From positions 12,930,001 to 12,994,000 of the forward strand of contig OZ038466.1 in the NCBI GenBank assembly GCA_964036295.1: DNA of 64,000 nucleotides, given 5' to 3'. Shown piece after piece: positions 4,765-45,100 of this stretch. The DNA comes from Plumapathes pennacea. Taxonomy: Eukaryota; Cnidaria; Anthozoa; Antipatharia; Myriopathidae. The notes beneath the pieces were generated by a model. The model had not been told where the DNA came from. It ran no database searches and saw only the letters and a list, made by a program, of their open reading frames with translations. How positions within the stretch are numbered: the stretch's first letter is position 1; every line of letters begins with the position of its first letter. Position numbers and translations under genes: made by a program.

Positions 4765-7074
4765 CTAATCAGTAAGCGGGCGCAAGAATCGTGACTTCCT
4801 CTTGGTCTTTGTATCCTCCAAGAGGTTTGACATATCCATCCTCATCTCATAGGCTGACATTTTTAATCCGTTTATCTTTACTGTGCCTATGTCTTTCTCG
4901 ACCTCATCACAAATAGCGTTACGTCGCTTTGGGAAAGAGCGCCTGAACAGCTTTAGAATTGGGTCGTCGGTAATAAAGGGACATTCTTCAAGTGGTTCCT
5001 TTGCTGGACAGGCAACGAGTCCTGGCGATGACAAGGGTAAACGTTGGTCTCCAAGAATGGCTCTGCTGGAGTCCGTGGGATCTGTAGCTGCTATCTGGTT
5101 GTTTTTTGTGTCTTGCGGAGCCTCTGCCATAGAATCTTCTTCGAAGATGTTGGTGTTTGTACTTGCTCTTCCAGACATTTCAGTGTGAGTCTCTTTGGGG
5201 ATCTCGGTGGTTGCATACTGAGAATTGAATATAGATACCCGTTCCGCCATTGCTGAGGTTTCTTCCACGTTCCTGTTATCTGTAACTAGCTCCATAGCGG
5301 ATACTCGTTCATTGCAAGCTGCATCTGGCAGGATGTCACGTATCTCATGCAAGACACCAAGACATTGATTGCCAAGAGAAGCACTGGCAACACTAGGAGT
5401 AACTTCACTTTTTACCTGGTGCTGATTGCCATAAACTGTGCTGCTTGTTGTTGTTGACACTTCCTTATAGGTTCTGTTTGGGAGGATATATTCTTCTTTA
5501 GCTTGATTATTGTACACCTCTGCTCCTTTTATCTCTTGTGTCGGACTCTCGTGCTCGTGCTCATGCACACAGAGAGAAAGACCAAAGGGATGAAGGCTGA
5601 GAAAGTTCTCTTTGATGGGGCTGTCCAAGTGGATTCCGTTAGTGGAGCGGTGGAACCTGAGCGGACCTTCTCCAGGAGCTTTTGGAGCTGGTTTGCTTTC
5701 CTGTTGCTCAGAGGCTGAATTATCGTTGGTACCGCTCTCTTTGTATGGATCGTGAATCACGACTGGTTTGTAGCGAGCGGCAGGTCGCCTTTTCTTTGTG
5801 CGTTTGCCTGGAAGTTTCTCCGGTGGATGGGGCACATGCTGGAACTCTGAGTTTCTATGAGCAATGTCGCCTTTCCTTTGTGGGTGCAAGTTTGGTGAAC
5901 CTGTCAACGTTTCATTATCAGAGTCTGTCTCTGCTTGGGATTTTGTCAGGTTCACCTCTGTGTGTTTCATAGTGGTATCTGCGACAGAAACGACTCCTGT
6001 AGGGTTTATAGTTTTGTTCGATTCGCTTGTCTTCCTGGCATATTTGACTTTTTGGTCTGTGCTGGTTTGCAGATGGTCATATTCTGCAGAAGCAGAATTA
6101 TCAGTCAGGTCACATGCTTTCACATTTTTTGTTTCTGGTGCAAAACTTTTTGGTTGAAGGCAACACTGCAGTGGGGGTTGGTGTGCAAATCCAATGGCGT
6201 CTTTGTCTGGAGACGAAGGGGCACTGGGTACGTTTTGCGGGCACTCCACTGCATACAAAAAACATATGGGCACACCAACTTCATTTGTGTAGAACTGAGA
6301 GGAGGGTTCAGTGTTTTTCCCTTGGCGGTGTTCTTTCATGTTTGTTGTTTTGTCGCAGGCAAACCGAGTTTTTCCATTTGCTTTATGCGCTGGAGAAGGA
6401 CTTAGACTGTCTTTATATGTTGGGCGACGAGGAAGGAGTCTTTTGGTGGGCGTTGAAAATTTCGATTTACCAATTACTTCTCTGGGAATCTTGAAGCTTT
6501 CGTGTGGTGTCTTTGTAGAAATCGAGTGTTCGTCGGCGAATTCTTTATCGCGTTGTTCTTCACAGCCACGAAGACTGAACTTCCCAACTATTTCGTTTTC
6601 TGTTTTGCTTGCTTTCTCTGGAAATTCAGGGACTAGAGGGGCTTGCTGGAGTCCCAGCCGGGACAGATATTCAGCGACAGATGTGGAGTTGATGGCGGTT
6701 TTGTCGCTTCGATTACAGGCTCGTGAATGTGACGCTCTTGTTGGCAAATCATTGCCGTTATCATTACAAAAACGAAGTCTCAGTGAGATTGGGGACCTCT
6801 GCCTGTTTAGTGTAGTTGTCTGTCCAGAAGACAACATTTCAGGCAGTTGAAACCCACGTTGTTTTGGAGACATTGATCGAGCGTTATGATGACCAGAATA
6901 TTCTTTCTCTTTCTTCATAATGAGATGTTTAACTACGCCCTCGATGTTATGTAGTTTGATCTCCAGGCACTGTACACTCTTCTGGAATGTAAACGGTTTT
7001 ACCAATAGTAAAATAAAATGAATGAAAGTTACAATTTCGTTCGACACGTAGCGACGAGCAATGAATAATGACAT
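4765..7074 (-). CDS. Large, mostly disordered protein of unknown function (last or only exon)
   Basis: An uninterrupted 769-codon frame, far longer than chance in AT-rich DNA, starting at an ATG and ending ...FLRPLTD. I do not recognise a family. Most of it is polar, rich in S, T, P, K and E and probably disordered. A basic patch KRTKKRRPAARYKP at about residue 420-435 could be a nuclear localisation signal. The last 75 residues (ITDDPILKLFRRSFPKRR region onward) are more hydrophobic and may fold. The first 31 residues may be intron: a good acceptor (ACATTCCAG) lies just before residue 32 (KSVQCLEIK), position 6981. Homology with the pseudogene at 2230-2686 also starts there. So the true gene may have upstream exons, with this as a 4765-6981 terminal exon. 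The existence of a partial copy supports it being a real gene. Confidence 0.75.
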   Translation of the reverse strand: MSLFIARRYVSNEIVTFIHFILLLVKPFTFQKSVQCLEIKLHNIEGVVKHLIMKKEKEYSGHHNARSMSPKQRGFQLPEMLSSGQTTTLNRQRSPISLRLRFCNDNGNDLPTRASHSRACNRSDKTAINSTSVAEYLSRLGLQQAPLVPEFPEKASKTENEIVGKFSLRGCEEQRDKEFADEHSISTKTPHESFKIPREVIGKSKFSTPTKRLLPRRPTYKDSLSPSPAHKANGKTRFACDKTTNMKEHRQGKNTEPSSQFYTNEVGVPICFLYAVECPQNVPSAPSSPDKDAIGFAHQPPLQCCLQPKSFAPETKNVKACDLTDNSASAEYDHLQTSTDQKVKYARKTSESNKTINPTGVVSVADTTMKHTEVNLTKSQAETDSDNETLTGSPNLHPQRKGDIAHRNSEFQHVPHPPEKLPGKRTKKRRPAARYKPVVIHDPYKESGTNDNSASEQQESKPAPKAPGEGPLRFHRSTNGIHLDSPIKENFLSLHPFGLSLCVHEHEHESPTQEIKGAEVYNNQAKEEYILPNRTYKEVSTTTSSTVYGNQHQVKSEVTPSVASASLGNQCLGVLHEIRDILPDAACNERVSAMELVTDNRNVEETSAMAERVSIFNSQYATTEIPKETHTEMSGRASTNTNIFEEDSMAEAPQDTKNNQIAATDPTDSSRAILGDQRLPLSSPGLVACPAKEPLEECPFITDDPILKLFRRSFPKRRNAICDEVEKDIGTVKINGLKMSAYEMRMDMSNLLEDTKTKRKSRFLRPLTD

Positions 7075-7374
7075 GGGCAGTTCTCAACGACGTAGAAAGG
7101 GTGTTTCCCTCTCGTTTGTCACCTACTGATTTACTTTTTGTTTTCCAAATGACTTCAGACCATAAACCGCTATGTGTCGTTGCCAATCTCTCTCCGGTAA
7201 TTAGTTCTGTTGAATTGTTTAGATTTTCTGTTTGTTCCTTTGTTGATTTATTTCGGTAGCCGAAACTGGCGACAGAAGCGCATTAAAACAATACTTCGAG
7301 GGAAAATGATCAGCATACAGATTGTAATACATTCTTGAAGTGATCGGGTTACAAGATACGGGTAGAATATATTT

Positions 7375-11992: not shown

Positions 11993-12483
11993 TATAGAGT
12001 AAGTACTTGACTGTTATACTAAAATTGCGTAGTCAACAAAATTAGAGTGATAAACATAACGTCAGGGTTTAGGAGCTTTAAATAAACTCCGCCCTAAAAG
12101 TAAACGTACATCTTTGTCGAAAACGTTCTGAGACCTTAAACAACAGATATTTTACACAACCCAATAATTTATACTAAGCGATTGCTAAACTTAACTACAG
12201 TCAGTCCAGGTTGGATTGGTCAGGCAGATTCGAAAGTAACTCAATTAGTTAAAGGCCAGGCAAATTTCACACTCGAAAAATATCAGTTATAAGATGAAAA
12301 TATTCAGTCACGTCTCTGAAAATAATCAGTACTAATTAGTGGTGTTTTTATCAAAATCTCTTCCGTAAAATATCGCCTAATTTTTGAACAAAATTTCGCT
12401 TCACCCGCGCGTTTGATTGAAACCACTATTATATTTTCTGACACCAAAAAATCTGGAAAACATGAGGCATAGTCATTTTTTCC

Positions 12484-13538
12484 TTATCCTTTGTCATTAT
12501 GCTCGTTGAGAATAGCCTTAATTTTGGTAAAAATGATCTCCTTTTCCTCTGCACTACACATTTCTATAACACTTATTGACATAACCCACTCCAATAAACT
12601 TCTTGGAGTGACAATTTGTGATGCACTTAGTCGGTTGTCATGTTCCAATGTCCCAAACTTATGAGATGCTTCCAAGATTCCTTTCCAGTTCTGTGATGTT
12701 TGAGTTGGTGTGTTAAACCTTGAATAATATGGGGAAATTACTGCATCCATTTCATTCACCCAAGGTACCGATCTGTCTGGAGTGATCCACAACAGACCAA
12801 ATTTACCTCCAGGGACGAGGACGCGGTGGATTTCTGCTACAGCTTCAGCATCTGCAAACCAGTGAAAACACTGAGCAGCCACTACAGCATTTACACTACA
12901 GCCAGGCAAGTCTGGAAAATAGAAAAGCTTAGGGTTAGTTAAAGGAATTACAACTAGAATAAATAATTTATGCTATTTGATATGGGAGAGTACTCCCATG
13001 CAATCAAATTGACATTCGACATGGGTCATGCAATTTGTTCACAGTGGCAAAAAACATGAAGAACAGCATCTTGATGCAGCCAAAGAGCCACTTTGCCACA
13101 CAGGCTGGACTTACCATTTGGCACTAATGGCAGATAAAACACGAAATAAGCAAAATACTACCTATAAGTAAGAAGCCGTGTGCTCCAGACTTTCTCTAAT
13201 CATTCTTCACCTATCTTTTGAGCTGCACATTTTCGTATGTCGACACCCGGTAACACTTCTCTAAATTTCTCACACATCGCTGGCAGAGGTTCGGTCGCAA
13301 TAATACGGGCATGCTGGTTTCTCAGAACGTCTATCATGGTCCTGGTGAACTTTCCTGTGCCAGCACCAAGTTCAAGGATGACAAATTCATGTTCGACGGT
13401 GTGATTAAGAGCCCCAAGTTGTGTAAGCATCAGCTGCACGGCTTCTTTGTCGTATCCTGGTCTCGCACGCTCATATAAATTTACGAGATTTCTGTTGTAT
13501 GCGATCTTCGCCGTGTTGTGAACAGCGCCTGTCGACAT
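12484..13538 (-). CDS. Class I SAM-dependent methyltransferase (two exons)
   Basis: Exon 1 is 13538-13211 and exon 2 is 12911-12484. The intron has GT (13210-13209) and AG (12913-12912) ends, and phases join cleanly (KI, then D built across the junction). The product is 251 aa. Motif I VILELGAGTGKFT (residues 53-65) is the SAM-binding glycine loop, and the acidic motif II is ATEP (81-84). LPGCSVNAVVAAQCFHWF (111-128) and HRVLVPGGKFGLLW (138-151) are motif III/IV-like segments typical of the methyltransferase-type 11 family, the group of uncharacterised cytosolic enzymes that includes yeast YHR209W-like proteins. The substrate cannot be told. The start has no upstream in-frame alternative in exon 1. 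It lies in the left arm of the inverted duplication; the right arm has a broken copy. Confidence 0.88.
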
Positions 13539-13719
13539 TTTGTTTGTGTAAATGCTTCGACAGATTTTACTAAATGTGACGAAAGCGGGAAGAGACGTAT
13601 CACAAGGAAAAAACTATATTATATAATGATTGTGTCATCATGTATTCAGGCTTTTTAGATAATAAACGGGTGGCCGTAAAATCTAAATCCGGGCATGAAA
13701 TCGAGGACCAGAGGACAAC

Positions 13720-13787
13720 TAACCCTAACCTTGAACCTAACCTAACCTTAACCCTAACCCTAACCCTAACTCTAACTCTAACCCCAA
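13720..13787 (+). repeat. Interstitial telomeric (CCCTAA)n tract
   Basis: About eleven CCCTAA/CCTAA/CTCTAA units in a row. The core has perfect (CCCTAA) repeats around 13750-13770 and degenerate units on both sides. This matches the TTAGGG-type telomere used by cnidarians, here about 180 bp upstream of the methyltransferase start codon. Confidence 0.85.
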
Positions 13788-13921
13788 ACGGCAAGATTTA
13801 TTTCTTTGTGAATGAAACTTTGACAGCTAAACGACAGAAATCTGTGGCGAAACGGCTTCGATCTGCACGTATAACTGATCCAGAACTTTGCGATAATTTC
13901 ATGGAGGTCTTCAATTATTAA

Positions 13922-14840
13922 CTCCACAGGCGGGTGGCCCTCAAATGGGAACGGTGGAATGGCTGAATATACGCTGAAATCTCATAACACGGAATGGCGG
14001 AATTTACCCCCAAAACCATCTCTCTATTTATCTGAATGTCTCTGTCTCTCAGCCTTTTTCTTTCATTTTAGCTTGTTTTGCTTGTTTTTCTTTATTATTG
14101 TCCGGTTTAGCGGAATATAGCCCCGAATCCTAAAACGAGCGAGAGAGAACAGAACAGTGTGAAGTCTCTTTTTATTTACACACTCTTTCAGATAGCCGTG
14201 ATTAAAACCTATACATTGTAGGTAATACTAATTACCTAACCTAAGAATAAAATATAGTGTAATACATATACGTCGTATACCTGTCCATGGTTCACGGTAG
14301 ACCGCAGGATTTAAATTTTCTTTTAAACCCAGAGAGCCTGCACCTTTCACCTCGTAAGGAGAACATGTCTACAGTTTTGCATCCGCATTTTTCTAGGTTA
14401 CTCTGTGTTTGGCTTCGGTAAATGGAAGTTTAATTTACGATTTCTTAATTATATGGATTCACCGGCCTCGACTTTGGTAACTAATTTCAGTTATATATTT
14501 TGGGACCTTGTTTTCCTTGACTTTGAACATTACTGAAGCTTTAATCCCTGCGCATCTGGAACCTGGGCTTTCCAAATGTTTTTCACAAATTTCAGTGGCA
14601 CTTGCATCAAAAGCTGAATTTGTGATAACACTAGTAGAAAGTCCCTTGAAAGAGTATCCCAAACTACGTCACAGTAACGAAATAGGTTGCCTAAATAAAT
14701 CAGTAATAGTATGTCTTGCAGATGAGACTTTCTTTGAAATGTTTTCAACATGATCATTGTATTCCATGATAGTCAATGCCTGAATGTTTGTATTATTTAC
14801 AAAGTTGTACCTTGGGTATATGTCCTTATTAATCTAGCTA
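13922..14840. other. Gene-free stretch
   Basis: No exon or element ends recognised. GGAATGGCGGAATTTAC at about 13990 and CGTTCCGCTGTTTCGCCATTCC near 15445 suggest a degraded repeat pair flanking the 14841-15309 element. Confidence 0.35.
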
Positions 14841-15309
14841 GAGTAGAACCTCCCGTAAGCGACCAAACTTCGTTCGATACTAAGTGGTCGCGGTAATTTC
14901 TCACCACCGGAGGCCTAAGTGCGATCCAACTTTGAGCCACAACCAGTGTCAAATAAGGCAGTCTTCGCGAGTAAGTAACACTTTGAGTTTTAAGAATTCA
15001 ACCTTGTATCTCGTTGCACGTTTCGTTGCGTATGTCAATGTTTTGTCCGGTCCATTCTGCAAGGAAGTTAGTCCTTGCTCAGAAAATTGCTCTGTGCAAG
15101 CATAGGTGGTCGCTTACCGTAGGTCAAAAACAAACAGAAAAACCCAAAGCAGTGAGCTTTAAAGGTGGTCGCCCTCGCATACGAGGGGTGGTCGCTTACG
15201 AGAGGTTTCACTATTACTAATAGTAAGTTGACTAAGAACCCAATCAATAGTTTGGTTACTGGTCGCTTAAGAGAGGTGATTGCTTACGGAGCTGAGGGAA
15301 GTTCTACTG
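14841..15309. mobile_element. MITE with AGTAGAAC(C/T)TC termini, TA target site
   Basis: The left end GAGTAGAACCTCCCGTAAGC and the right end GGAAGTTCTACTG form imperfect inverted repeats flanked by TA (14839-14840 and 15310-15311). Inside, GTGGTCGCTTAC-like units recur several times. The CCCGTAAGCG motif is shared with 15523-15718 and 25056-25233, so these form one Tc1/mariner-like MITE group. Confidence 0.65.
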
Positions 15310-15522
15310 TAGTTGTTAATCAGATGCTATGAGCATGTATTCGGTTTTTGATTCATTGGGGTTGAGCCTATTTGCTATTAAAATTTGGGGGTATGGCTTT
15401 CGCCATTCTGCGTTTTAGGATCTCGGAGTATATTCCACCGTTCCGCTGTTTCGCCATTCCCGTCAGGGCGGGGCAGTACCTGTTCTATTTTCAAAGCATC
15501 ACGCAAAATTTCAAAACTAATA

Positions 15523-15718
15523 CAGTTGCTGCTGTGAAGCTCCCGTAAGAGGACACCCTTGGGAAGTAGAAAAAAGCGTCCGTAACTGAAAACGGCCGCT
15601 TCCAAGAATTTGTAAATATTGAGTTTGACTGAGCCAGAGCAGTAAACGTAGTTTTGTACAGGTGTCCGTAAGTAGAGCTGTCTTCTTACGAGAGTGCTCA
15701 CCCAGAGAGCTTCGACTG
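15523..15718. mobile_element. MITE copy in the left arm, absent from the right arm
   Basis: Contains GAAGCTCCCGTAAG, GGACACCCTTGGGAAG and a CGACTGTA end, paralleling the element at 25056-25233. TA lies at both edges (15521-15522, 15719-15720). Its right edge coincides with the point where the two arms of the big inverted duplication stop matching. Confidence 0.65.
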
Positions 15719-16995
15719 TATTTAAGAGCGGCTCTCTGTAAATATCGAGAATCGGGCGCCAACTGCCAAATTTCGAAATTCATGTTATTTTATCCAAAGA
15801 ACCTCTTTGGTGAACTGTCTTCGAAAATAATATTCAAAAGTTCAACTGCCTTTTCGTTTTGACAAAATCGGGGATAGTCTAAAATGCCCTCCCGACCCCT
15901 CGAACCGACACGAAAATGGTGCAAATTTAACAAGCTCGTGTAATAAAACGGTAAACAATCTGGCCATCGCAACTCGTCAGTGATTCAAAGTACCTCTTCT
16001 TCTTTCTAAAGCACCTAAAATAACTATGGAAACTTGAACTTGTGGTAGTGTTTCGATTTTTCAAAAAGACCAAGGTAAAACCTCCGAGCGGCAGGTCAAA
16101 TTTTAGCCAATTTTAATTTCACCAGGAACATTTGGTACATGTCGTTTGAGCAAAAACCCAACGTCAACTGAACTAATAAACATTTAAATTTCTTGTCTCA
16201 AAAGGTTTTCCGCGGCCCGCAAAAAGCCTCGCGTTGAGAAACATAAACAGTGAGGGTAGTTTGACACAATCGGTACTGGATGCGGGAAATGGCTTCGGCT
16301 AAAACGAGGCATTAAGTAGGTACACAGATGAGAAAATTATCAAACGCTTGACAATTTAAAACTCGATTTGCTATATTCTTTTCCATTGTGTGACTTAGAG
16401 TGTCATTTTCGCAGAAAAACGGCGATGTTGTGATGAATAATGAGCACTGATAAGAACCGACGCGGGCACGGATCAGATTACATTTTCCGGAATTCAAGAA
16501 ATTCTTAATACAGAAAGTTTCAACAGTACCACTGCAGTAAAAGCAGGTGTATATTACCAAGTATTTCCACTACAAGCCATAAAAGTGACTGGGTGGAGTT
16601 AAATCAAAAGCTACGGCACGACTTTCAGATAGATTTCAGTGAGTTATACACAATAATCCACTTACCGCGGTCAACATAACATCTAATTTGCCAACACCAG
16701 CTAACAGTAATACGTACTTGTAACTTGAAATCCTTGCTTTACAATTGGAAAGAGCTTGTCATTTTAACACACGAAAGCCCTTTAACAGAAATTTGATGTT
16801 TTCGTGACCAATTCGATGTCCCGCAACCCAAGTGGTGGTAGTAAATCGACATTCGCTTTAGCAATTCAGTGCTGTTACCGTAAAATGTTTGATGGGGGTT
16901 TGATCACTGTTTAAACCTTCGCTATTAAATTAAATTATGATCGTCGACTTCATGTGAAATCGTATAGTCGTGTTTTGCTGACCCGCTACATATTA

Positions 16996-17273
16996 GGGCC
17001 TTTCATACGAGAGAAAATACGCCGCGGCTCACATAAGACTTGCACGTACTATAAATGGCACGCAATCCACACGTTCATGGCTAACACAAGGCGCAGCAGT
17101 ATCCTGGCCTAGGGATTTTGAGCTGTTCTTATCTAAGCCGCGGCTTATACCTCAGTCGTGAAACCGTAAATCATTTATACGAGCAGTTCGCGTCTTGTGA
17201 AAGCCGTACTCGTATGAATGGGTCTGCACGTCTTATGTAAGCCGCGGCTTATTTTCTCTCGTATGAACGGCCC
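16996..17273. mobile_element. MITE with GGGCC(T/G)TTCATACGAG inverted ends
   Basis: The left end GGGCCTTTCATACGAGAGAA continues with CGCCGCGGCT and CACATAAGAC. It is mirrored at the right end (CTTATGTAAGCCGCGGC ... CTCGTATGAACGGCCC). The inverted repeats are about 50 bp, the whole is 278 bp, and TA flanks both sides (16994-16995, 17274-17275). Non-coding. It resembles the GGGCCTCTTCATATGAG element at 26631-27301. Confidence 0.8.
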
Positions 17274-18001
17274 TATTGTCTCCTTTTTGACAAGTATTCA
17301 TGCAATAATTTTATCACGTTTATGCCTACTCACTTAATATGTTCGACTTTTCCCGTGAAATAATTAGTGCATCTCTGGCTAATCATTCTCGGTGAATTTT
17401 TTGAAGTATTTGAAGCACTTCAATCTGATCTTCGACAGGCATTTGCAGTGGACATTTTAGAGAGAGTGTAGTGAGCGAGTGCAGCTGACGTGTTCCTTCA
17501 GCCAGTGTTTGCTTTAGTCTCAACTTAAAAAAAAATCCTAAGGCTGATCTGTAATACACGATGTAGGTTCAATGCTCATAATTGAGCAATCCATTCCAGT
17601 GTGAGTACTGATTGACTGCAGCAGTGAAAGAGAACTCGAGAACATGCAACGTGCACTATTTACATGTGCGCGTCCAACCAGACATTCAGTTCTGTAATAT
17701 CTTAAAGTCTGTTTAGAGACTTGTAAGCTTCGGGGGGTGGGGGCACTTCGTATTTGATGGGCTGTACGGGATGGGGAGGCTCTGCCCGAATGGGCGGGTT
17801 CTTTTTAATCAAGCCTCAGGTCATAACTAAATTTGGTACTTCAAAGGGTCGGTAAGAATGTCTGGACAAAGAAAAATCGTATTGGCATCTTCTAGAGTTT
17901 CTAACAATCATGCCTCCACTGAAGTATTCGTAAATATCGTGTTGCTGAGTTGTCGCTTGCGGTTTTTCAGCGCTTCTTCCTGTTCAAAGGTATGAAAGGT
18001 T

Positions 18002-18023
18002 GGGGGGGGGGGGGGGGGGGGGG
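18002..18023 (+). repeat. 22-bp G homopolymer
   Basis: An uninterrupted run of G. Similar G/C runs occur at 1551-1568, 10721-10735, 22436-22459 and 43884-43900. Confidence 0.9.
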
Positions 18024-19860
18024 ATGTTTATAAGTATGGAAAAGGGTCACTATGTCGACCCAGGATGGTAAGGGGTTGAAAGTCTCGGCGGAGCCTCTCC
18101 GTATTAAATTTATGATGCGAGTGCCTCTCCCTCTAACCTTTTTCTTAAATCCAGATATGCCCTTATGTTTTGTTCCTGGCATACAGAAACGGCTCAGTAG
18201 ATCCTAACGTTTAGTAGACGGCATCCTCTGGCTTATCTGGCCGGGTGAAAGGTTTCTGCGGCTGAACAACAGATCACCGGCTGAATTGTTTCCGACAGCA
18301 CTGATATGGAAATAAAATAGAACTGTTGATGACGTTTATTTTAGAACTCGGTCACAGGCCGGTTTGTTTTGCTTGCTGAGATGTTATTTGGTGGATCTGC
18401 AAGACACGACTGTACGATTTCAAATAAAACCGCACTTCATGAACCAATTCAACAGCAAAGGTTTTAAAGTCGAGAAATTCAAACCATTTCACGGTAACAC
18501 TTGCTAAAGCGAATGTTGATTAATTTACCACCAACATTTTGCGGGACATTTAAAAGTCACGCAAACGGCATCGAATTTCTGTTAAAGGGCTTTCGTGTGT
18601 TAAAATGACAAGCTCTTTCCAATTGTAAAGCAAGGATTTCAAGTTACAAGTACGTATTACTGTTAGCTGGTGTTGGCAAATTAGATGTTATGTTGACCGC
18701 GGTAAGTGGATTATTGTGTATAACTCACTGAAATCTGTCGGCTGAAAGTCGTGCTGTAGCTTTTGATTCAACTCCACCCAGTCACTCTTATGGCTTGTAG
18801 TGGAAATACTTGGTAATATACACCTGCTTTTACTGCAGTGGTACTGTTGAAACTTTCTGTAATTAAGAATTTCTTGAATTCCGGAAAATGTAATCTGATC
18901 CGTACCCGCGTAGCTTCTTGTCAGTGCTCATTCATCACAACATCGCCGTTTTTCTGCGAAAATGACACTCTAAGTCACACAATGGAAAAGAATATAGCAA
19001 ATCGAGTTTTAAATTGTCAAGCGTTTGATAATTTTCTCATCTGTGTACCTACTTAATGCCTCGTTTTAGCCGAAGCCATTTCCCGCATCCAGTACCGATT
19101 GTGTCAAACTACCCTCACTGTTTATGTTTCTCAACGCGAGGCTTTTTGCGGGCCGCGGAAAACCTTTTGAGACAAGAAATTTAAATGTTTATTAGTTCAG
19201 TTGACGTTGGGTTTTTGCTCAAACGACATGTACCAAATGTTCCTGGTGAAATTAAAATTGGCTAAAATTTGACCTGCCGCTCGGAGGTTTTACCTTGGTC
19301 TTTTTGAAAAATCGAAACACTACCACAAGTTCAAGTTTCCATAGTTATTTTAGGTGCTTTAGAAAGAAGAAGAGGTACTTTGAATCACTGACGAGTTGCG
19401 ATGGCCAGATTGTTTACCGTTTTATTACACGAGCTTGTTAAATTTGCACCATTTTCGTGTCGGTTCGAGGGGTCGGGAGGGCATTTTAGACTATCCCCGA
19501 TTTTGTCAAAACGAAAAGGCAGTTGAACTTTTAAATATTATTTTCGAAGACAGTTTACCAAATGGGTTCTTTGGGTAAAATAAAATGAATTTCGAAATTT
19601 GGCAGTCAGCGCCCGATTCTCGATATTTACAGAGAGCCGCTCTTAATAGGATAATATGGTTAGTTTTGCCTTGTCGAGGCGTCTCTTCCGGCTTTTCTCC
19701 ACATTTTTGTTTTATCTGCCATACCAAACGGTAAGACCAGCCCGTGTGGCAAAGTGGCACTTTGGCTGCATCAAGATATTATTCTTCATACTTTTTGTCA
19801 CTGTGAACAGGAGGATTCTTGCAGACAATCGCATGACCCATGTTCAATGTCGATTTGACT

Positions 19861-20096
19861 CCCGGGGGAGGGGGGAGGGGGGTACTCCCATATATTTCCT
19901 ATATAGGGACGTTCCGCCCGATAGGGTATCATTTTCAGGGTCTTCCGTCTTGAACAGGGTATCAATTAGAGCACTTTGTCTTAGACAGGGTAGCAAAATT
20001 TCCATTTTTGTGTCTTGAATAGGGTCAGGGTTCTATAGAGTCAGCGGAACCCCCCTACCCAAATTCCTATTGAGTAACCACCCCCCACCCCCCGGG
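19861..20096. mobile_element. CCCGGGG-ended element with 8-bp target duplication
   Basis: It starts CCCGGGGGAGGGGGGAGGGG, continues GGGTACTCCCATATAT, and ends CCACCCCCCGGG. It is flanked by a perfect direct ATTTGACT (19853-19860 and 20097-20104). It interrupts the duplicated methyltransferase intron; the uninterrupted left-arm intron is the empty site. The 8-bp duplication suggests a hAT-like mechanism. Further copies are at 22136-22463, about 50860-51147 and 51493-51719. Confidence 0.85.
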
Positions 20097-20190
20097 ATTT
20101 GACTGCACGGGAGTTCTTTCTCCTACCATATAGCATAAATTATTTATTCTTGCAATTCCTTTAACTAATCCTAAACTTTCTATTCTCCAG

Positions 20191-20630
20191 ACTTGCCTGA
20201 CTGCAGTGTAAATGCTGTAGTGGCTGCTCAGTGTTTTCACTGGTTTGCAGATGCTGAAGCTGTAGCAGAAATTCACCGCGTCCTCGTCCCTGGAGGTAAA
20301 TTTGGTCTGTTGTGGTATACACGAGACAGATCAGTGCCTTGGGTGAAAGAAATGGATACAATGCTTTTCCCATATTATTCAAGGTATAACACACCAAATC
20401 CAATTTCCCAGAACTGGAAAGGAATCTTGGAAGCATCTCATAAATTTGGGACATTGGAACATGACAACCGACTAAGGGCATTACAAATTGTCACTCCAAG
20501 AAGTTTGTTGGAGTGGGTTATGTCAATAAGTGTTATAGAAATGTGTAGTGCAGAGGAAAAGGAGATCATTTTTACCAAATCAAGGCTATTCTCAATAAGC
20601 ATGATGACACGAAGGATAAGGAAAAAGTGA
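20191..20630 (+). pseudogene. Orphan methyltransferase exon 2 with frameshift
   Basis: Clear paralogue of exon 2 of the gene at 12484-13538. It reads LPDCSVNAVVAAQCFHWF, HRVLVPGGKFGLLW and TPRSLLEWVMSISVIEMC. The intron acceptor (CTATTCTCCAG) is kept before 20191. Exon 1, with the SAM-binding motif I, is absent from this arm. One base is missing near 20581 compared with the intact copy (ACCAAATCAAGG versus ACCAAAATTAAGG), so the last about 15 residues are out of frame and end in RIRKK. It lies in the opposite orientation to its source. It cannot make an active methyltransferase alone. Confidence 0.85.
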
Positions 20631-20689
20631 CTCTGTCTCATGTTGTTCAGATTTTTTGGTGTCAGAAAATATAGTACCTTATAAAAGTT

Positions 20690-21337: not shown

Positions 21338-24310
21338 TCACATAAACCAGTATCTCGCTGAGGACGTTGGTGCACCCTTGAGCGGCATAGTTTTTGTGAG
21401 ATGCGTTTGAAATTGCGTTGCATTGGATGGTATATCATGCCACTTGAAACCAAGCCATTTTTCCATAAGCTCAAGCGGCACAGACAAGATCACCGCCTTC
21501 ATCGGCTCGTCGTAGTTATTTCCCATGTGTGCGATGCTCTCCACTTGGTTTATTTCATTTGTATTTGGATCGACGTGAACAAAGGCTGCCAGAGACCATA
21601 TGGAATTGGGAATTGTTATGTTTCCTTTCAAAGAGCGCTCTTCCCCTTCCACAAGGTCGAACTCTTTCCCGCCGTTCGGAGCATCATAGATTCTAATTTC
21701 TTTGCTCGATGTCCCCGCAAAAATAGCAAACTCTCCATTACTATCGGTGAATGCAGACTTAAGATGGTTCATCAGTGCATACTCTACCTCCAGCCAGTAA
21801 ACGCGGTTAAACTTTGGAGCCTGGGGCACGGTGAAGGCGTAGCTGAACGTGTTGTGCAAGGCCCAGGGATCAAACGAGGCCAACTGTGGAGGGATTATGT
21901 GGCCCCGGTCCCACCCGGACTGGTCATAAAGCTCATACGAACCCTGGTTAGGGCCGAGATCTAAAAATGTGACATCGGATAAACAGTCTAGAATATTTTA
22001 CCGATTTCGCAACTAAAACGGCCGCATATTTAAGTATCGTACGACCAGCGTGCAATCGGCCAATATCCAACAATGAGAGTCAAGTATGACTTGCACATGT
22101 ATAACTTGCCGGTTCTATATGAAATAACACGCTTCCCCGGAGGGGGGTACTCCCATATATGAGCCATATAGGTATGTGCCTCCCCAAAGGGTATCATTTT
22201 CAGCATTTTAGTCTAAAATAGGGTATCAATTTTAGCATTTTAGTCTGAAATAAGGTCGGAGATTTTGATATTTGGTCTGAAATAGGGTCGAAAATTGCGC
22301 ATTTTGGTCTGAAATAGGGTCGAAAATTGCAAATTTTGGTCTGAAATAGGGTCGAAAATCGCAAATTTTGGTCTGAAATAGGGTAAGGGTTTTCAGTCCC
22401 GGGCGGCACACTTCTACCCAAAATTTTGAAGAGTACCCCCCCCCCCCCCCCCCCCCCCCGGGGCACGCTTCACTTTGGGAAGGTATTACTTCCTTGAACT
22501 CATTCTTGTTCCAGGCTCTTGTTTCCTTAGGGCACAATTATTTATCGTTTTTATTATCAACTATCTGTGGCTTTCGTGGTTTCGAAGGATTCCCTTAAAA
22601 AACGTAAGAATTTTTAGATATTTCATGGCTAATTCGACGCAGTCTTCTTTAATTTAACTCCTAATTCTTGTTGGAGTTATTTCAAAATTTAGGATTGATT
22701 TGTTTGCCTTACAGTCTGTTCAATTTTCTGCGCTTAGTGACCCAAGGTAGGTTTAGGGTCGGTTGGTGGAAATAAAATACATACGTGCATAAGAAAATTA
22801 TTCTAATGTACATACAATACCAAGAAACAAACCTGGTTCCTTGTAAAACTGGTTGGAAACCACGCTTCTCAGAAAAGAGCCCATCTGTTTGACCTCCTCT
22901 GATGTCATCAGTATCCTGGTTGTTTGTGGGATTCCTCTGGCAATATTGAATAAACAACCTAACGGCTCCTTCTTAAAGTACTTCCATTCCTCATGTCCAA
23001 GCGCCATGTTCTTCAGAATTTGGAAATCCAATACCTTTGCTAAATGAACAATTTCTCTTGAGGCGGCCTTCACCGCGGCTTCGACAGTAGCACCTTCCTT
23101 CACCAATGGATTATGTGATCGAGAGAATTCGGGAGCAGGAATTGCCATCTTATCTGGACAAAGTATGTCGACCTCAAGAATCGTGGCACAGTCACCAGAA
23201 GTCAACTTGTCTCCGAGATAATCCATCTCGAACACATCGTCTCGGAGATATGCTTCCAGAATTCGGAATTTCTCACATGTTTTGGAGCTGTTCTCTGGCT
23301 GGACTTGTTTGGACTTGGAAATCACGTGGTTATACCGGAGTGGCAAGGGTTGATAACGGCAGTTCGCTGTCAGAATTTTAAATATCATTATCTTAGAGAG
23401 CAAGAATAATAACTAATGACATCTTACAATAAAAGTACAGTGGAATCGTCGAGACCAGAGAGTATAACTTTTTGTGAGATAGTGAAAAGATTCTTAAAAA
23501 TTCTATATCTTTTAGATTTATAGAATTTTTCCACGTTTATAGGACTGGGCTTGACAATTCATTGACTCAACTTTCATCTCCCATGTGTTCGTTCACTAAA
23601 TTTTCAATTGCATTTTCACTTGATGGTCATCATCAATTCGTGCGACCTCTTTTTGTGCATTACTGAAGATTCTTGATGAACATGCAAACAACCTGTAAGA
23701 GATAGGGGTACGGGAGTACAGAAAGGAGTTGTGTACCTACCTTTGACAACTTCTTTAAGGTCTGCAAAGTGTGACAAGGTAACACAGCTTTTAGTAATAC
23801 GTACTATATCTGCACTAATTCTTACGATTTCACATTTTGGTAATTTTAAGAATTTCTACAAAGAAATATGGCTGGAAAGGCTATAATACCCTCCGTCAAA
23901 ACTCTCCGGTTACTATACAGCTCGGGTTGCTAAGCTTGGCATCAATACACGGCTCAAATTACGTAAAGATTTTAACAACAGTCAATATATTACCGTGGCA
24001 TCGGCCTGGCAGCCCGTCTCCTATAAACCCAGTTTTACAAACGCACGTGAAATTCCCTTCAGCAACCTTCACACATCCTGCGTAAGTATCGCATTTTTGT
24101 GTGCACTTGACTCCTGTTGGCGAAAGGACCAAAAGTCGTCAGTTTCAAGTGTAAGTTCATTGGTACAAAGGTTGATGTCCGTCAAAATGTGCACGGGGTG
24201 AAGTTTATAGGCAATTGGTCAATCAACATACCTACAGGAGTTTTCTCCTTTCCAACGGAACCAGCGATAAATATGGCAGCCAATACAGCCATCACAGGAG
24301 CTCGCTTCAT
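21338..24310 (-). CDS. Secreted EGF plus DNA/RNA non-specific endonuclease (four exons)
   Basis: Exons are 24310-24232, 24113-23994, 23366-22833 and 21960-21338. All introns are GT-AG and all junctions are phase 1, giving 451 aa. Exon 1 is a signal peptide (MKRAPVMAVLAAIFIAGSVG). Exon 2 is one EGF-like domain with six cysteines (C30, C34, C40, C50, C52, C65; core GNFTCVCKTGFIGDG). Exon 3 (residues 67-244) is a linker or N-terminal domain I do not recognise. Exon 4 holds the nuclease core: GWDRGHIIPP with DRGH at 262-265, whose His is the catalytic base in the Serratia nuclease family. It also has FTVPQAPKFNRVYWLEVE, where N296 and E304 keep the spacing of the Asn metal ligand and Glu of that family. 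It would cut nucleic acid with a divalent metal, outside the cell, plausibly in digestion or defence. The stop follows ARYWFM. The gene is complete with no breaks. Confidence 0.88.
22136..22463. mobile_element. CCCGG...GGGG element with 32-bp internal repeats, in the nuclease gene's last intron
   Basis: Perfect 8-bp direct CACGCTTC at 22128-22135 and 22464-22471. It starts CCCGGAGGGGGGTACTCCC. Four to five tandem units of about 32 bp (GTCTGAAATAGGGTCGAAAA core) lie at about 22240-22390. It ends in a 24-C tract and GGGG. It lies between nuclease exons 3 and 4 (22832-21961), so it would be transcribed within the intron. Confidence 0.85.
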
Positions 24311-34014: not shown

Positions 34015-34767
34015 TCAGTGTCTCTGACAAATATAGAAATAATTACGCCACAGAAAAGCATCGTTCCACTGGTTCCACCTCCAGATAATCACATAATGCT
34101 CTTTCTCGCCTGCATTATTTGGCTCACCCGGAGAGAAGTTCTCGTAATCGACTTCTGATCCGTCCAGCCACACCCAACGTCCCTCTTGTTTCTCGTTCGT
34201 CATACCGATCCACGCAGACTTCCCGTTAAGCTGACGCGCGATGAAAGAATTCTCCGCCTCTGATTTGATGATCACAAGCGTGGCGTTGAGGCTCTCGCAT
34301 TTGGCGCGTGCGCCGCGCCAATTCTGTTGTTCTGACGAGAAAAGGTAGCAAGAGTTCTGGAATTCTATCCAACCTGTTTCACAAACTGAAATGAAAGAAA
34401 TATTAATTTATTAACCACGTCAATGGCTAAGAATTAATATCAGCCAAATTTTCCTAAAAATGTTAGAGACCAAAATATGTCTGTTCTCGCAAAAAGTAAC
34501 AACGCTTAAAAATGACTTTCCACTCCGAGGATGGCCGCTTACGAAATATACTGCAGTTTCGTTTTCTCTTAGCTTGCTCCAAAACAATTTCTTTTTTTCT
34601 TTTGTATCTTGCCCCTTGGTCACACTCTTATAAAAACTACTGGCAACTATAATATATCAGGTACAGTAAGTAGTGTCCAATAGAGCGGTGTTTGGATGAT
34701 TTTCGAAAACCAAAACCAGTAACTCAACCGCAAATCCCAGAAGCAAAAGTAATTTGCAGGAAAAAAA

Positions 34768-34800
<33 letters not shown>

Positions 34801-35757
34801 GAAAAGAAAACACCCAGCATCGAAATAAAAGCGCCGCCTCCACTTGCTTGCTGGCCCAAGGTTGGATCGCAAACAAGTTTTGTTTTGTCACAATACTCGA
34901 CTAACACTTCTTCAGAAAGGGCAGTTTCAGCTATCGCATTCAATGATTTGTTAGATACAAAACAGGTTGGTGGCCTGCCTCTCCGCGGCTGTTTGGCCGC
35001 CGGTTGATCGGTGAACATTATTTGTAGAAAAACTCGGTGCAAAGCACAAAACGAATCACCAAAAAAGGATAGAAAGATTATAGAAACTATTTAGTTGAAA
35101 CGATTAGCTTGATGATTGATTGATCGATTGATTGATAGAAGAGATTCAATCGGATTGTCATCAAACACTTGAAAAACTGATATACCGTGAAGTCGAAAAT
35201 GGGGTCGGAGCGCGTGAAGGATCATGGTAGAGGGAGGCTCTTTAAGCAGTTGCATACATAGCCCGGGAAAAAAAAACACCGGGGTTTTAATGGAAATTGA
35301 ACCCATGACCTTCGCGACCTGGAAGTGTAAAATTGTTAATTGCATTTAGGCGTTGAACAGGTTTAAGAAGCGCAATGTACGTTAACTTATAAGTTACTAG
35401 TTGTAACTAACATTATTCTATTGCAAGTTGTAGTTTCAGGAACTTACAGGGATGTATTTCGCAGTAAATGGAGTACTCGTTGTAGTAGAAACCCTCAGGA
35501 AACCAATGACGAGTTGATTTCCTCAGGGCACATGCTTTTCGACTCGAATAAAAGTTCACACTACGACAGCCTTGCTCTTGTTCACAGGTAGTGGTGCACT
35601 CTTCGTAATCTTTGGCAGAAACTCGTTTGATCCAGTAACGCCCTGTCAATTCATAGTTCAGCACGCATGACACTGCTTTACACTGGTCAGCGATAACTGT
35701 TGCCATCAAGGAGACGAGGCAGAACCCTATGATGCCATGTTGGATTTTCATTCTCAT
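34015..35757 (-). CDS. Secreted PAN/apple plus C-type lectin protein (two exons)
   Basis: Exon 1 is 35757-35448 and exon 2 is 34385-34015. The donor is CCT|GTAAGT and the acceptor ATTTCAG. Phase 1 joins EIHP to FCETGW, giving 226 aa. Residues 1-24 are a signal peptide (GIIGFCLVSLMATVIA core). Residues 26-101 form a PAN/apple-like domain with paired cysteines (C26, C31, C54, C58, C64, C76, C99). Residues 105-226 are a C-type lectin fold: C105/C116 long-form pair, WIGM (162-165), E191-P192-N193 (mannose-type sugar motif) and W210-N211-D212 (calcium site). C133 and C223 give the main disulphide. The second conserved disulphide is missing on both sides (Y201 where Cys is usual, and no Cys after WND). 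Likely a secreted sugar-binding recognition protein. An acceptor-like TTTTAG lies 8 nt before the ATG, so a 5' non-coding exon is possible. Confidence 0.88.
34761..34786 (+). repeat. A26 tract in the lectin intron
   Basis: 26 A followed by GAAA-rich units. It lies in the single intron of the lectin gene. A dirty poly-A of this type may mark a retroposed insertion, but no element body is recognised. Confidence 0.8.
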
Positions 35758-38700
35758 ATGCGAAACTAAAATGATAGAAAATAAGCGAGATGATTACTTC
35801 TTATTCATATGGTAAAATCTTCCCTTAAAACGTAAAGGCAGCAAAATAACGTTATCCACTTTATCGACCTACGAGCATGGGCCTTTTCCAAAGTTCCTAA
35901 CTTCTTTTAAACGGGAAGACATTATTTGAAACGTCTACATCATGTTTCATTTTGCTTTTAGCATATTTTAAAATGGTATTTGTTATCGTGAAAAACCCTT
36001 AAAGGGACCCTTTATTGCTCAATCGTATCGTATCCTGAACAGACCAAAATTCACAGAAAACCGCCAATATTTTGTAGTATCATCGTCTTGGTGAGAAAAT
36101 ATGGCGCAATCATAGATGCATTGAACTTGTATGCACATCCACGTTTAGAATTTGACTAATTTTACAGCTCCGAATGAAAAATAAAAAATGATCACTGATC
36201 TGAAATTGTTTAAGATAACCAAATTCAATTACTGGTGTTCGGAAAAATGTATAACAATAGGACCCAGCTTGTACACCTACTTGACTGGTGAACAAAATGA
36301 AACATATTCTTGCCAAAATGTCCACACAACGGTTTTAGGTGCGTCGTTTGTTTGGCTTCGACTGGGAATGGGGCATTTGGTTAAGGAAATCTAGACATTT
36401 TTGTCAATACTGAAATGTTCATAAAGTCAAAACGTCGCACCAGCATACTCTGTTCACTAGCCCATAATAATAGACTGAGACTTTTATAACGATTGTTTGT
36501 TTAAAAACTTTTTATTAAATGTCACAAAATTGCTGCAATTCAAGACCTTCAAACAAGGCAATAATGTTCTTCAATTTTGTAAAATTATAGCACCCATTGT
36601 GTTTACTAGTACATAACAATGTGCCTTCGGTGGCTTTTAAGGAAAATTAAAACTTTAGATCTGATGTTTGTCGTGGAGTTGCATGGATATGATTAGTTGA
36701 AGGGCTTGTTTTTTGGTAACTGCCAAATTATTTTTATAGAAATGATTTGAAATGATACAAGTGATTTGAGGTCAATTTAATAAACAAGACAGAGCTGGTG
36801 TATATTGGTTTGTAGAATTATCACGCACAACATTACACAAGGTGAAGAAGAAAAGAAACTAAGCAATTGAAATGATGATTATTCATGTTTCAAAATTAAA
36901 CTTTTCAACACCATTTTCACAAAAAAATAAACAGCATTTTTTTTCGCTTTGAAGGAAATTCACATAGATGAGCTACTTTCAGTTGATATTTTGCAGAAAT
37001 TGTTCATGGAAAACGCTTGAAGTTAAAAAAAAAGGTTGTGTCTGGTTTTGTAAGCCAATTTCGAGAAAAATAGAATAGCTGTCCCCGAAGCTACGTAATG
37101 ATTTGTGGAATGATGAAGTTCAAGTAATATCCACGTTTGGAACACAGCAGCAGTCGATCACTGTAAAAATAGGAATGAAAGGTACAAATTCCACGTATTT
37201 TATGAATGACCGGGGAACCAAGGATGATTACGTTCTTGCGAGCACTGACAAATTCCTGGTCGAACCTACTTGCCGAAATTCATCGTTGTCTTACCGTTTT
37301 ATTTGAAGTGTAAACGTGTCCTGCAAACATACCTCACCTGTGCTGTTTTCAGCTTAGCTGGGAATTTAGAACTTCAGCTTTCATAAAGGGCGAGTGGCTG
37401 ACAGGAATTTCACTTGATGCTGCAATAAACGGAAGAGGAAAAGGATACAAATGAAAAGACGGATAATTGTTTGATTCTGTCGCAATGTTTGACACTTTAC
37501 AATGTAAAGATTCAGTTAAAAAAGAATTCAACTTACCACAGGAAAAGTCGGAAGTCTGTTTGCCGCGGTTTTCCAAACAAAACTTCTTATGTATCTGTTT
37601 GTCATGTGATCAGCTCAGAGCGACGCCGCCGCGTTACATGATATTCTGATCCTTTTCCTGATTGGTTGGAAGAAACAGTTACCAAACAATTCTTCAAGTA
37701 ATTACATTGTACACTCGAAACCCCATAAAAGCAACTACTTTACCACTTCTTTTAGAGGTCGTCCGCGCAAAAAACTTCTAACGTTGACAAAACGAAACAA
37801 CAGAAACACATACGTGCAACTATAAGTTCTGCTCAAATGTTTGAGCTTAAATAAAACCGGTTTGAAAACGTACTGTATGTATCAGTGTAAGGTTGATGTA
37901 TACCTTTGTCTTGAACGCCATAAACAATGTGTGCGTTAGCCGTTACTGAATACAGAACCTTTAGTCGATTTTCATGCAAAGGGCGCAATCTGAATAGGCA
38001 TTGAAGTCGACAACTTTATTTTTTAATGGAGTTGCCATTAATGTCCAACGGTAACAGCACATTGGATGCTTGCATCTACAGTAGATTTCCATTTAAAGAA
38101 AACACAAATTAAACAATACCAACTCCTCAGTTAAGTGTTTACAAAATCATGCTGAAGTCATTTTTCTGACAGATTCGACAAGAGACAAAAAAATCGTTCA
38201 AAAAATACTGACATCAGGACACACTACTTCTGTTATCTTAAACCAAAAAAAAAAAAAAAAAAAAACTGTTCGTCGACTGACCCAAAATACCCGACTGTCA
38301 TAGCGAAAACGAGTAGACGCCTGTTCTATGGGTGGTTAATGATACTTACAATAAAACGTTATAAATTTTCTGTATCTATACTCAAATATCCGCTTACCGT
38401 GAAATTGTAATTATAGTGAACTGAAAATAGAGTTGGTCTCTCCCGCACTCTGGAACCAATTAATATGAGAGACTTCCCAAATTTAATTACGTTGAAAATT
38501 TAACACAGTTATTTTATTGGCAACAAGTTTGGGTTGGACAAAAGAAACATCTTACCGCGGGGGAAGGTAATTTACACTTTCCGCACTTTTGTCGATTACT
38601 TCTAACGTCAGCTGTCACTGCCAGTGAAGTGGAAAAATTATGAAATCTACAAATGCTACAGGAAATGGAAAAAAGAAGACATTTGCGTTTGCAAAAACAA

Positions 38701-41003: not shown

Positions 41004-42107
41004 CTACACGGTCGTTTCTTTAGGCCAAACAATCGATTGTTCCTTTTTTGCTGGAGATTTGGTCATTAAATAGCTTCTCATGCTGTCACTGAAGCTTCTG
41101 AGTCGGTTGAATCTTGACGCGTGACTGGATTGGAACACCCGGCGTGGGTTGCAAGAAAAGCAGAGCTTAAACTGTTCGCGGAAGTTCTCGTGGCATATCG
41201 CGTACGCGATAGGATTTGCCGCACTGTTCGCGAAAAGGATGATGTTAGTTACTGCAAGGAGATCCCGGAAATGTGCGTAGTCTCCGCCGCGACCAAAATC
41301 CAACCACAACCACATGACGTTATTGGGTAACACGCTCATTGCAAACAGCAGGGTGACCACTATGAGCATGCGCACAACTCGGCGTGTCTCGCACTGGGAT
41401 TGGCTCCCGAGGGCTGTGTTTGAGTTGGTGCCAAGACGTTTCCTGAGCTCAAGACCAATTTGCACGTACACGAATGTTATGACCGTCAGAGGCAGCAGGT
41501 ATTGAAATACAAATAAAGAGGCGGTATACACTCTCCTACTTTTCTTGCTCCGCCACTTTTCTTCACACTCGCCTTTTGTCTGATCTAGTTGTAAAGCCAC
41601 TATATATGGGGATGTGAGCACTAACGACAGAATCCAAATGAGAACAACGGCGACTTTCATGTGGTGGATATCCATCTGTTTCCGCAGTGGATGAACTATT
41701 GCACGGAACCGATTCAAACTGAGCACAGTCAGAGTGAAAATAGACGCAAACATAGACACAGTCTGGAGTGGGTAGAGGGCTTTACACATGAACGAACCAT
41801 ACGGCCATTGGTAATTGTTTTCTTGGACATGGATGTCAAATGGGATACAGATGCAAGTCACGGCAAGGTCTGCAATTGCCAGGTTAAGAATAAAAAAGTT
41901 TGTCACAGTTCGCATTCTCCGGCGTTTCGCGATCACTATGCACACGAGAGCGTTTCCCACCACACTGATGACAAAAATGACAGCGTACAGCAGAAGCTTC
42001 ACCGCCTTAAAAGTTGCCCCCTCTCTCTCTGACGAAGCTTCGGTGACGTTTCCTTCGAAGAACGACGCTGTTGTTGAAATATTCCAAGAAGGAATGGAGC
42101 TTGTCAT
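41004..42107 (-). CDS. Class A GPCR, neuropeptide-receptor-like (copy 1)
   Basis: Intronless 367-aa seven-helix receptor of the rhodopsin family, at the plasma membrane, signalling through G proteins. Visible hallmarks are two N-glycosylation sites in the N-tail (N9, N20), GN in TM1 (51-52), NLAIADL in TM2 (75-81) and the C108-C181 loop disulphide. TM4 has W158, TM5 has P206, and TM7 has NPIAY (298-302) followed by CHENFREQF as helix 8. The DRY motif is NRF (132-134) and the CWLP toggle is SVLP (258-261), with Val where the switch Trp is expected. There is no TM7 lysine, so it is not an opsin. Overall it is closest in feel to RFamide/galanin/QRFP-type peptide receptors; the ligand is unknown. 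It is a close paralogue of the gene at 54946-56028. Confidence 0.92.
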   Translation of the reverse strand: MTSSIPSWNISTTASFFEGNVTEASSEREGATFKAVKLLLYAVIFVISVVGNALVCIVIAKRRRMRTVTNFFILNLAIADLAVTCICIPFDIHVQENNYQWPYGSFMCKALYPLQTVSMFASIFTLTVLSLNRFRAIVHPLRKQMDIHHMKVAVVLIWILSLVLTSPYIVALQLDQTKGECEEKWRSKKSRRVYTASLFVFQYLLPLTVITFVYVQIGLELRKRLGTNSNTALGSQSQCETRRVVRMLIVVTLLFAMSVLPNNVMWLWLDFGRGGDYAHFRDLLAVTNIILFANSAANPIAYAICHENFREQFKLCFSCNPRRVFQSSHASRFNRLRSFSDSMRSYLMTKSPAKKEQSIVWPKETTV

Positions 42108-42109
42108 TT

Positions 42110-45100
42110 CTGTTTTTACAGGTTTATCGTGGCCCTCTGCTTAATAATAATGAGCGTCAACACGATTAATTAATACACTCCACTCGCTCTTGAATTGCTT
42201 CCAACTGAAACGCTGTGAAACACAGTTATGACTCGTCCACGTAATATAATTATACATAACATCAAATATTTTCGTATCAGCTTGCCTCCAATGCGTCTCC
42301 TCGTTTGGAACTCCAACTCACTAGACAAGCGCTTGATGCTGTACCAGTTCTGCCGCCCAACGCTTTCTCCTGCTTTTAAAAACCTGAAACAAACAAAGAC
42401 GGCAATACTGACTGCGGAGACCACGCCATATCGTTTGAACAACTGTTTTAATAATAACAGTTGTCAGGAAATGCTTAGTAATGCCACAACATGTACAACT
42501 ATATTTTAGGGTGCGTTCGATTGACCGTATTCCGCAATAGGAAAAGCTAAAATGATCCAAAGTTTTGCTTGTTCTGGGAAAAATGTTTTCGGGATTGTTT
42601 TTAAAACCTTCACGCTGACAGTTAAAACAGCTCCCAATATATCTAGACAGTTCAGCTACAAAGCAAAACATTTTATCAATCAGTGTTGCTATTTCAATTC
42701 CGGAATAGACCCAATCGAAGGCGCCCTTAATGAGTGTCGAACTTTACCATATGTATGACCATCTAAGCAATATTATTACAAACTAAGCAACTGTTTCTCA
42801 ACCGCTTGAAGTTGTACTCAATAAAATAACTCACAATAGCACTAGATGGCGTACTTATTAAATGTAATAATATACGGAAGGGTTAAGTTATTTTCGGAGA
42901 CAATATTTCTTGTACCTGTTCAGCTTCCGGAATGAGGTGTCACCCGAACAGAAGCAAAGATTTGTAGGGAGGCCGATCTGAAATCGTGCAAGTCTGAGTT
43001 CGTACGGATCTCGTGTAATCACTTCTAAGTGACAAGGAAATTAATGAACTAACTGCTGAGACCCAAGCACGTCCGAAGATAATTAAGTTTTAAAGTGATA
43101 AAACAGATTTATGCCGGATATTTTATAGACGACTGTCTCTGTTGTTTTCTTGGATAAATGTACAGGGTGGGGACAGTAGCCTTAAACGTCAGTCGTCTCC
43201 TCGGCCTGACGTTTAAGGCTATGGGGAGAGCATATCAATATAAATCCAAAAAAAAAAAAAAAACAAACAAACAAAAAAAAAAAAAAAAACCGCGACGCGC
43301 AATAGTAGGTAAAGATAGCATTTTTTGACGACTGAAGACAAAACAACGAATAGAAACAGTTTTAGAAGAGAGAAAGCAAAACAGTTACTTGTTTTAGTGA
43401 CAAGGGCGACTGAGCTAGTGTTACGCCTTGAAAGACCTGTCTATTTAGATCTGATTTGGTACGCATTACCACTGCTAACATGAAATATACAATATACGTA
43501 CTGCATGAGGTATTCACAACTTCAGTAGTTTTAGTTACATCGTTCGCGTGCATGTGTCAAATTATTGTGAATATTTGTTATGCTGTTTTGATATGTGAGG
43601 TTGAATTCCTGTCCATCATCTACTAATTAGAGCATACACTTCACTTCCAAATTTATCTGTATTAGGAAGGAAAATGTCATACACTTCAGTCAGCAACTCT
43701 GTGATAGGATCTTCTTATTGACATTTTCCTCGGGTTTGAGTGGAGCAATACTTTCACTGATAGACAAATTCACCTTGTCACTGAAAGGACTGCCGGGTCG
43801 CTGTCTAATTACAATAGTCATCATCTAAAACTTGATACAAATGTATCCATCATTGCTCCCCGTATAGCAGATCGTAGGGAGTACCCCCCCCCCCCCCCCC
43901 AGAACAGTGTCTGCACATCAACATATATATGTACAGTGGGTTTAGTGAGCGAAAGACTACTAAATAAATTCCATTTTGTCTAGAACACATGCTATACATT
44001 TGTAAACAAGCACCTGAAACCCTGCATATCACAATATCAAGTCCTGTGATCGCCTTAATAGTTAGTTTGCAGTCGCGCTTGAGTTTGTGGGAAAAGACGG
44101 AAATGAAGCTCTTCGTTCTAGGCAAGCAGTAGCAAGTAGTGAAGCGTAGTCTTGAGAGAGTTCTGATCGGTTCGCAATACAAAGAAACTACCCAAAAGTT
44201 CACAGACCAAATTCGTTCGTGCCAAACGCTTGCGTATTGTCTGTACGCTGAAGCGGCTTAAATTACATAATGTCATCAGGAATACAGATTAACCGCAGAC
44301 AGAGCGCTGTTTTCAGTTGAACAGATTACGGAAACGCACCGTTTGAAGTATACAATTAGTAGAACTTTCATGCAGCTGATCCATTTAGTTCAATATAATC
44401 CATTTAGTTCACACTCGATGTAACTCTTACCCTTTCACTGTTGTGTTTTCAGTCCAAATGAAACTCAGGAAATACAAAAAAGGACTAGATATCCGTTCAA
44501 TGACAACGTGAGCACTGCAACCATTAGACGGATTCACAGTACGCGTCGAGGAGTTCCGTCTAAGTTGAGCCTTGACCGCAGACTAACGGCTGAAAGTAGA
44601 CGAACATTTGCTAAATGACCTATTATACCAAATGTGGTTTTCTTCTTTCTTGAGTGACTGACATAACATTGCCTCATTTTAAAAGTGAGTTAGAGTTGAC
44701 CATAAACAGCGCTCTTGTTTCTGCTGTAGTATCATCTGCATGAACCACCAAGTGAACTGAAAGCTTGTTAATCCTAAGATAGGGAGTTCAAATTCCTTCT
44801 GCTTATCTTACGAACAGTACGAACGATATGAGAGATAGTTGATGTGAAATATCAGCTATGCAAGGATAGCTGTGTCTATATCTGTGTACAGAGTTTAAAA
44901 GGAGAAATTGTATACCTTGACCAGGAGTTAAAGAAACGGCTCCTAACTTAACCCGCTCCGGTGTATCCTGCACATCCGCAATTTTTCCGTTCGCGATTCA
45001 AAAACTGCCGACGGATTATTGCGAGCGAGCATCGCCTTACACTGTTCCACTTGTCAAGAGTGCCATAAATCATGTCACTTACGTAAGTATACTTACTTAC

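Follow-up and report, generated by a model that had tools for sequence, protein, structure and literature searches.

A predicted EGF-linked secreted nuclease gene in the anthozoan Plumapathes pennacea

A gene of the anthozoan Plumapathes pennacea, spread over at least four exons, probably encodes an intact, secreted, metal-dependent nuclease that carries an EGF module and would act on extracellular nucleic acid. It lies on the minus strand of a 64,000-nucleotide stretch of contig OZ038466.1 (assembly GCA_964036295.1, positions 12,930,001 to 12,994,000), the whole of which was analysed and is referred to here as the window; all coordinates below are those of the window. The gene structure, the match to a nuclease domain and the presence of its core residues are direct observations. 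Nucleases of this family have roles in digestion, insect saliva and mitochondria, and the product would appear to be a variant on the known family in which the nuclease is joined to an EGF module and to a segment of unfamiliar sequence.

Results

When the gene model was rebuilt from the window, the four exons, their GT-AG introns and the reading frame of the preliminary description were recovered as given, with an open product of 451 amino acids (Table 1). Exon lengths of 79, 120, 534 and 623 nt place all three introns in phase 1, the 1356 coding bases are uninterrupted and every splice site is canonical, and the locus has the look of an intact gene. The exon 3/4 junction, which falls between residues 244 and 245, is supported independently of the splice signals, because a match to EXOG (phmmer against the PDB; E = 3.3e-4) spans residues 239–306 and crosses the join unbroken. 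It is possible that translation starts instead at an in-frame ATG upstream, at 24343, which would add 11 residues, with an in-frame stop (TAG, 24355) farther upstream bounding the frame; as we read the two contexts, that of the ATG at 24310 is the better. The gene had also been called complete, and in this respect the model is probably one 21-nt exon short.

Table 1. Exons, proposed micro-exon and selected codons of the nuclease gene (window coordinates)
Feature	Position	Strand	Remarks
Exon 1	24232..24310	-	Start codon, followed by a putative signal peptide (up to about residue 20); donor TAG/GTATGT, phase 1
Exon 2	23994..24113	-	EGF module, six cysteines (residues 30–65); phase 1-1
Proposed micro-exon, 21 nt	23741..23761	-	Phase 1-1, open; highest acceptor and donor scores in the gene (generic matrices)
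Exon 3	22833..23366	-	Residues 67–244; about 67–190 unrecognised, 210–244 the start of the nuclease match
Exon 4	21338..21960	-	Nuclease core: D262-R-G-H265, N296, E304; stop codon
DRGH codons (residues 262–265)	21899..21910	-	
F287 codon	21833..21835	-	N in 10 of 10 aligned bacterial relatives
N296 codon	21806..21808	-	Expected metal-binding asparagine
M308 codon	21770..21772	-	R in 10 of 10 aligned bacterial relatives

The proposed additional exon lies in intron 2 and would insert the seven residues DLKEVVK after the EGF module, ahead of exon 3, giving a product of 458 residues. Scored with generic metazoan splice matrices that were typed from general knowledge, its acceptor reaches 7.9 and its donor 9.9, against 3.8 to 7.6 and 4.7 to 7.8, respectively, for the other exons. 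Across the window, such scores are attained on the minus strand by 57 of 3698 AG and 4 of 3831 GT sites; the plus strand has 51 of 3592 AG and 6 of 3728 GT sites that reach them. On either strand the micro-exon is the sole pair of AG and GT at these scores that encloses an exon of 12–120 nt divisible by three. A pair of this kind was present in one of 400 random stretches of equal length, and that one must have overlapped the micro-exon itself, since the scan of the whole window found no other; these statistics are post hoc, the site having been spotted by eye and scored afterwards. We are fairly confident that a five-exon, 458-residue form is made, whether constitutively or as an alternative.

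Over the whole length of the product, mean hydropathy exceeds 1.5 across 19 residues at the N-terminus only, as would be expected for a secreted protein without membrane spans, and the signal peptide proposed earlier, which we call from hydropathy and by eye, is likely to be one. The six cysteines that follow (C30, C34, C40, C50, C52 and C65) fit an EGF-like pattern, and the EGF_3 profile of Pfam matches residues 31–61 with an E-value of 4.9e-5 and a score of 23.9 bits, which is below the gathering cut-off of 28.5; with the micro-exon included the match improves to 25.0 bits (E = 2.2e-5), still short of that value. Of the six-cysteine EGF reported previously, then, the cysteine pattern and the E-value hold while the score stays under the cut-off, and we refer to the module as EGF-like on the strength of the former two rather than of the curated threshold. 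Its linkage to a nuclease in one protein is borne out, as the EGF_3 and Endonuclease_NS profiles both match the joined product. A gene in which all junctions are in phase 1 and the EGF module occupies a phase 1-1 exon by itself shows the classic signature of modules shuffled into secreted proteins of animals.

As had been anticipated, the product scores with Endonuclease_NS (PF01223): the match covers residues 210–383 (E = 1.1e-17), and its 64.9 bits, against a cut-off of 23, rule out a chance match. Exon 4 by itself gives 61.6 bits (E = 1.1e-16), to which the joined protein adds a small gain; NCBIfam, searched with the full product, returned no match. The DRGH motif is present as described beforehand, as are N296 and E304, which stand eight residues apart, the catalytic spacing of the family. 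N296 is expected to be the asparagine that binds the metal in this family.

Relatives of the exon 4 product, all of them distant bacterial or phage sequences and informative for the nuclease core only, were found in 21 plasmid records and in one phage record (E = 0.01), and prokaryote genome contigs held one weak relative (37% identity, query residues 55–103). Residues 68–451 were aligned with 10 of the 21 plasmid-borne relatives at identities of 17–23%, a level at which columns outside ungapped motifs are less certain, and of the 18 columns invariant in these ten the product keeps 14, including those of R233, R263, G264, H265, N296, W300 and E304. The other four are changed (P to G247, N to F287, R to M308 and K to S367), with M308 lying four residues past E304 without a gap. 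By our own reading of the printed PDB alignments, the same N, R and K are found in EXOG and in NucA, which we take chains 1zm8 and 2o3b to be. In Serratia nuclease the columns of F287 and M308 would correspond to N110 and R131, which would place both changes near the active site. With its general base, metal-binding asparagine and glutamate all in place, the product is expected to be a nuclease; full activity is not assured, and the predicted enzyme is perhaps slow or specialised.

The 178-residue segment that had been considered unrecognised (residues 67–244) coincides exactly with exon 3. The Pfam nuclease match begins within it, at residue 210 and at profile position 32 of 223, and because N-terminal profile positions are missing, the domain probably starts earlier still, at about residue 180–190. 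At least the last 35 residues of the segment (210–244) are therefore nuclease domain, and the description would hold for roughly residues 67–190, which match no recognised family. The exon 3 product gave no match in the PDB, and in pattern-based scans, which detect close relatives only, none of 32 pattern matches in prokaryote genome contigs and none of four in viral contigs was confirmed; such absence says little about how widespread the segment is, since these collections hold no animal genomes. The sole Pfam match of exon 3, to GST_C (E = 0.043, 14.5 bits against a cut-off of 20.7), was taken as chance.

Elsewhere in the window there is a large inverted duplication (12427–20676), whose arms are 93% identical over 1281 bases (15722–16992 versus 19646–18385) and 91% identical over 585 bases (12427–13009 versus 20676–20097). 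A methyltransferase-like frame lies in each outer arm, that at 12487–12972 on the minus strand matching Methyltransf_11 of Pfam (E = 8.4e-6) and that at 20175–20627 on the plus strand being recognised by similarity (tblastn). Intron 3 of the nuclease gene contains a repeat (22139–22434) of units resembling CCCTATTTCAGACCAAAAT beside a long run of G, which is 85.6% identical to 51136–50853 over 298 bases. Two frames for rhodopsin-type receptors (41007–42140 and 54949–56352; 7tm_1, E = 8.7e-57 and 1.8e-58) lie on the same strand with 68% DNA identity over 859 bases, and form a local gene pair. Also on the minus strand, frames for a C-type lectin (34018–34407, E = 1.8e-20) and for a PAN domain (35416–35793, E = 1.3e-8) may belong to a single secreted protein as two of its exons. 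These receptor, lectin and PAN frames, along with the kinds of repeat present, would suit a coral. The longest open frame of the window (4768–7083, minus strand; 772 amino acids from stop to stop) matched no Pfam family above cut-off.

Discussion

The view that this is a secreted nuclease draws on an open and correctly spliced frame, on the matches to Endonuclease_NS and EGF_3 and the EXOG match that runs across the exon 3/4 join, on the retention of 14 of 18 invariant columns, R233, R263, H265, N296 and E304 among them, and on an N-terminus that holds the only stretch with hydropathy above 1.5. Nuclease activity is known in secreted family members from animals (PMC2858651). In the mechanism we propose, the signal peptide would direct the protein out of the cell, and the EGF module, probably gained by exon shuffling on its own phase 1-1 exon, would likely serve as a spacer or docking module; it may also tether the nuclease, as was proposed earlier. 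The C-terminal domain, of the beta-beta-alpha-metal kind, would cut DNA, RNA or both, with H265 acting as the general base, N296 holding Mg2+ and E304 nearby. Breakdown of extracellular nucleic acid would be the likely task; that it takes place in digestion or at mucus surfaces is a guess by analogy. Counting against a secreted nuclease are the four changed columns and the EGF_3 score below the Pfam cut-off.

Those same columns are what an alternative would build on, namely that the protein is secreted and binds nucleic acid, its nuclease activity being altered or no more than residual, as with the tsetse salivary proteins Tsal1 and Tsal2. Methionine at 308, phenylalanine at 287 and serine at 367 replace residues found in all ten bacterial relatives and, as we read the alignments, in NucA and EXOG as well, and the Tsal proteins bind tightly and cut weakly (PMC3479092). 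That source also describes the Tsal proteins as having no catalytic histidine, however, whereas H265 is kept here along with N296, E304, R233 and R263, and we regard such a binder as unlikely, if worth keeping in mind. It is far less probable still that the locus is an unexpressed copy or a decaying gene. The large inverted duplication does end near 20676, some 660 bases from the stop codon, but the 1356 coding bases are open, the splice sites are all canonical, the core residues are kept and the window holds no second copy of the exons: tblastn for a paralogue returned the exons themselves and one chance-level match of 24 residues (E = 4.0), and blastn at 1e-10 found none.

A further question concerns residues 67–190 and is compatible with the secreted nuclease favoured above, so that its odds do not add to those of the other alternatives. 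We lean slightly towards the segment belonging to the nuclease as an elongation of its N-terminal part, much as arthropod secreted nucleases have long N-terminal regions, rather than forming a separate domain. In the arthropod secreted members, too, the active site lies far from the N-terminus (PMC3479092, PMC2858651), and exon 3 encodes both the segment and the first part of the nuclease domain. Our expectation is that the segment is a lineage-specific extension that packs against the nuclease. It is tempting to speculate that it is instead an undescribed extracellular domain of some animals, which together with the EGF module would direct a nuclease of altered active site (F287, M308) to one particular surface or ligand, making it a tethered binder or trimmer and not a free digestive nuclease; we think this improbable.

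The product shares its domain with the other members of PF01223, such as Serratia nuclease, Anabaena NucA, EndoG and EXOG, the last being its best single-sequence match in the PDB, and has the DRGH, N and E at equal spacing. Unlike the relatives compared, it has a secretory N-terminus, an EGF module and an orphan segment, as well as F287, M308 and S367 at otherwise invariant columns. ENDOD1 (endonuclease domain-containing 1) is an animal Endonuclease_NS protein that likewise has a signal peptide, and it is not known to carry an EGF module. Other secreted relatives can be compared by description. The dsDNase of Northern shrimp and the DSN of Kamchatka crab are also secreted proteins of about 400 amino acids with the active site far from the N-terminus, and the passages describing them mention no EGF module (PMC2858651). 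The crustacean Par_DSN-like group has AKGH where the product has DRGH (PMC2858651). Tsal1 and Tsal2 are likewise secreted Endonuclease_NS proteins with a changed active-site region, differing in the loss of the histidine that the product keeps as H265 (PMC3479092). Among the matches listed in a search of the open-licence literature by title and start of the abstract, none concerned a fusion of EGF and Endonuclease_NS.

EGF-like modules are common and the nuclease domain is nothing out of the ordinary, and fusions of the two in cnidarians may well be recorded in protein databases. Apart from the fusion, the altered positions and the micro-exon this is a routine gene model; the probable micro-exon is relevant to anyone expressing the protein, and what the altered active-site positions do is open to simple biochemical testing. 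As a secreted member of its family fused to an EGF module by exon shuffling, the protein is a candidate for handling DNA or RNA outside the cell, at the gut or mucus surfaces of the coral.
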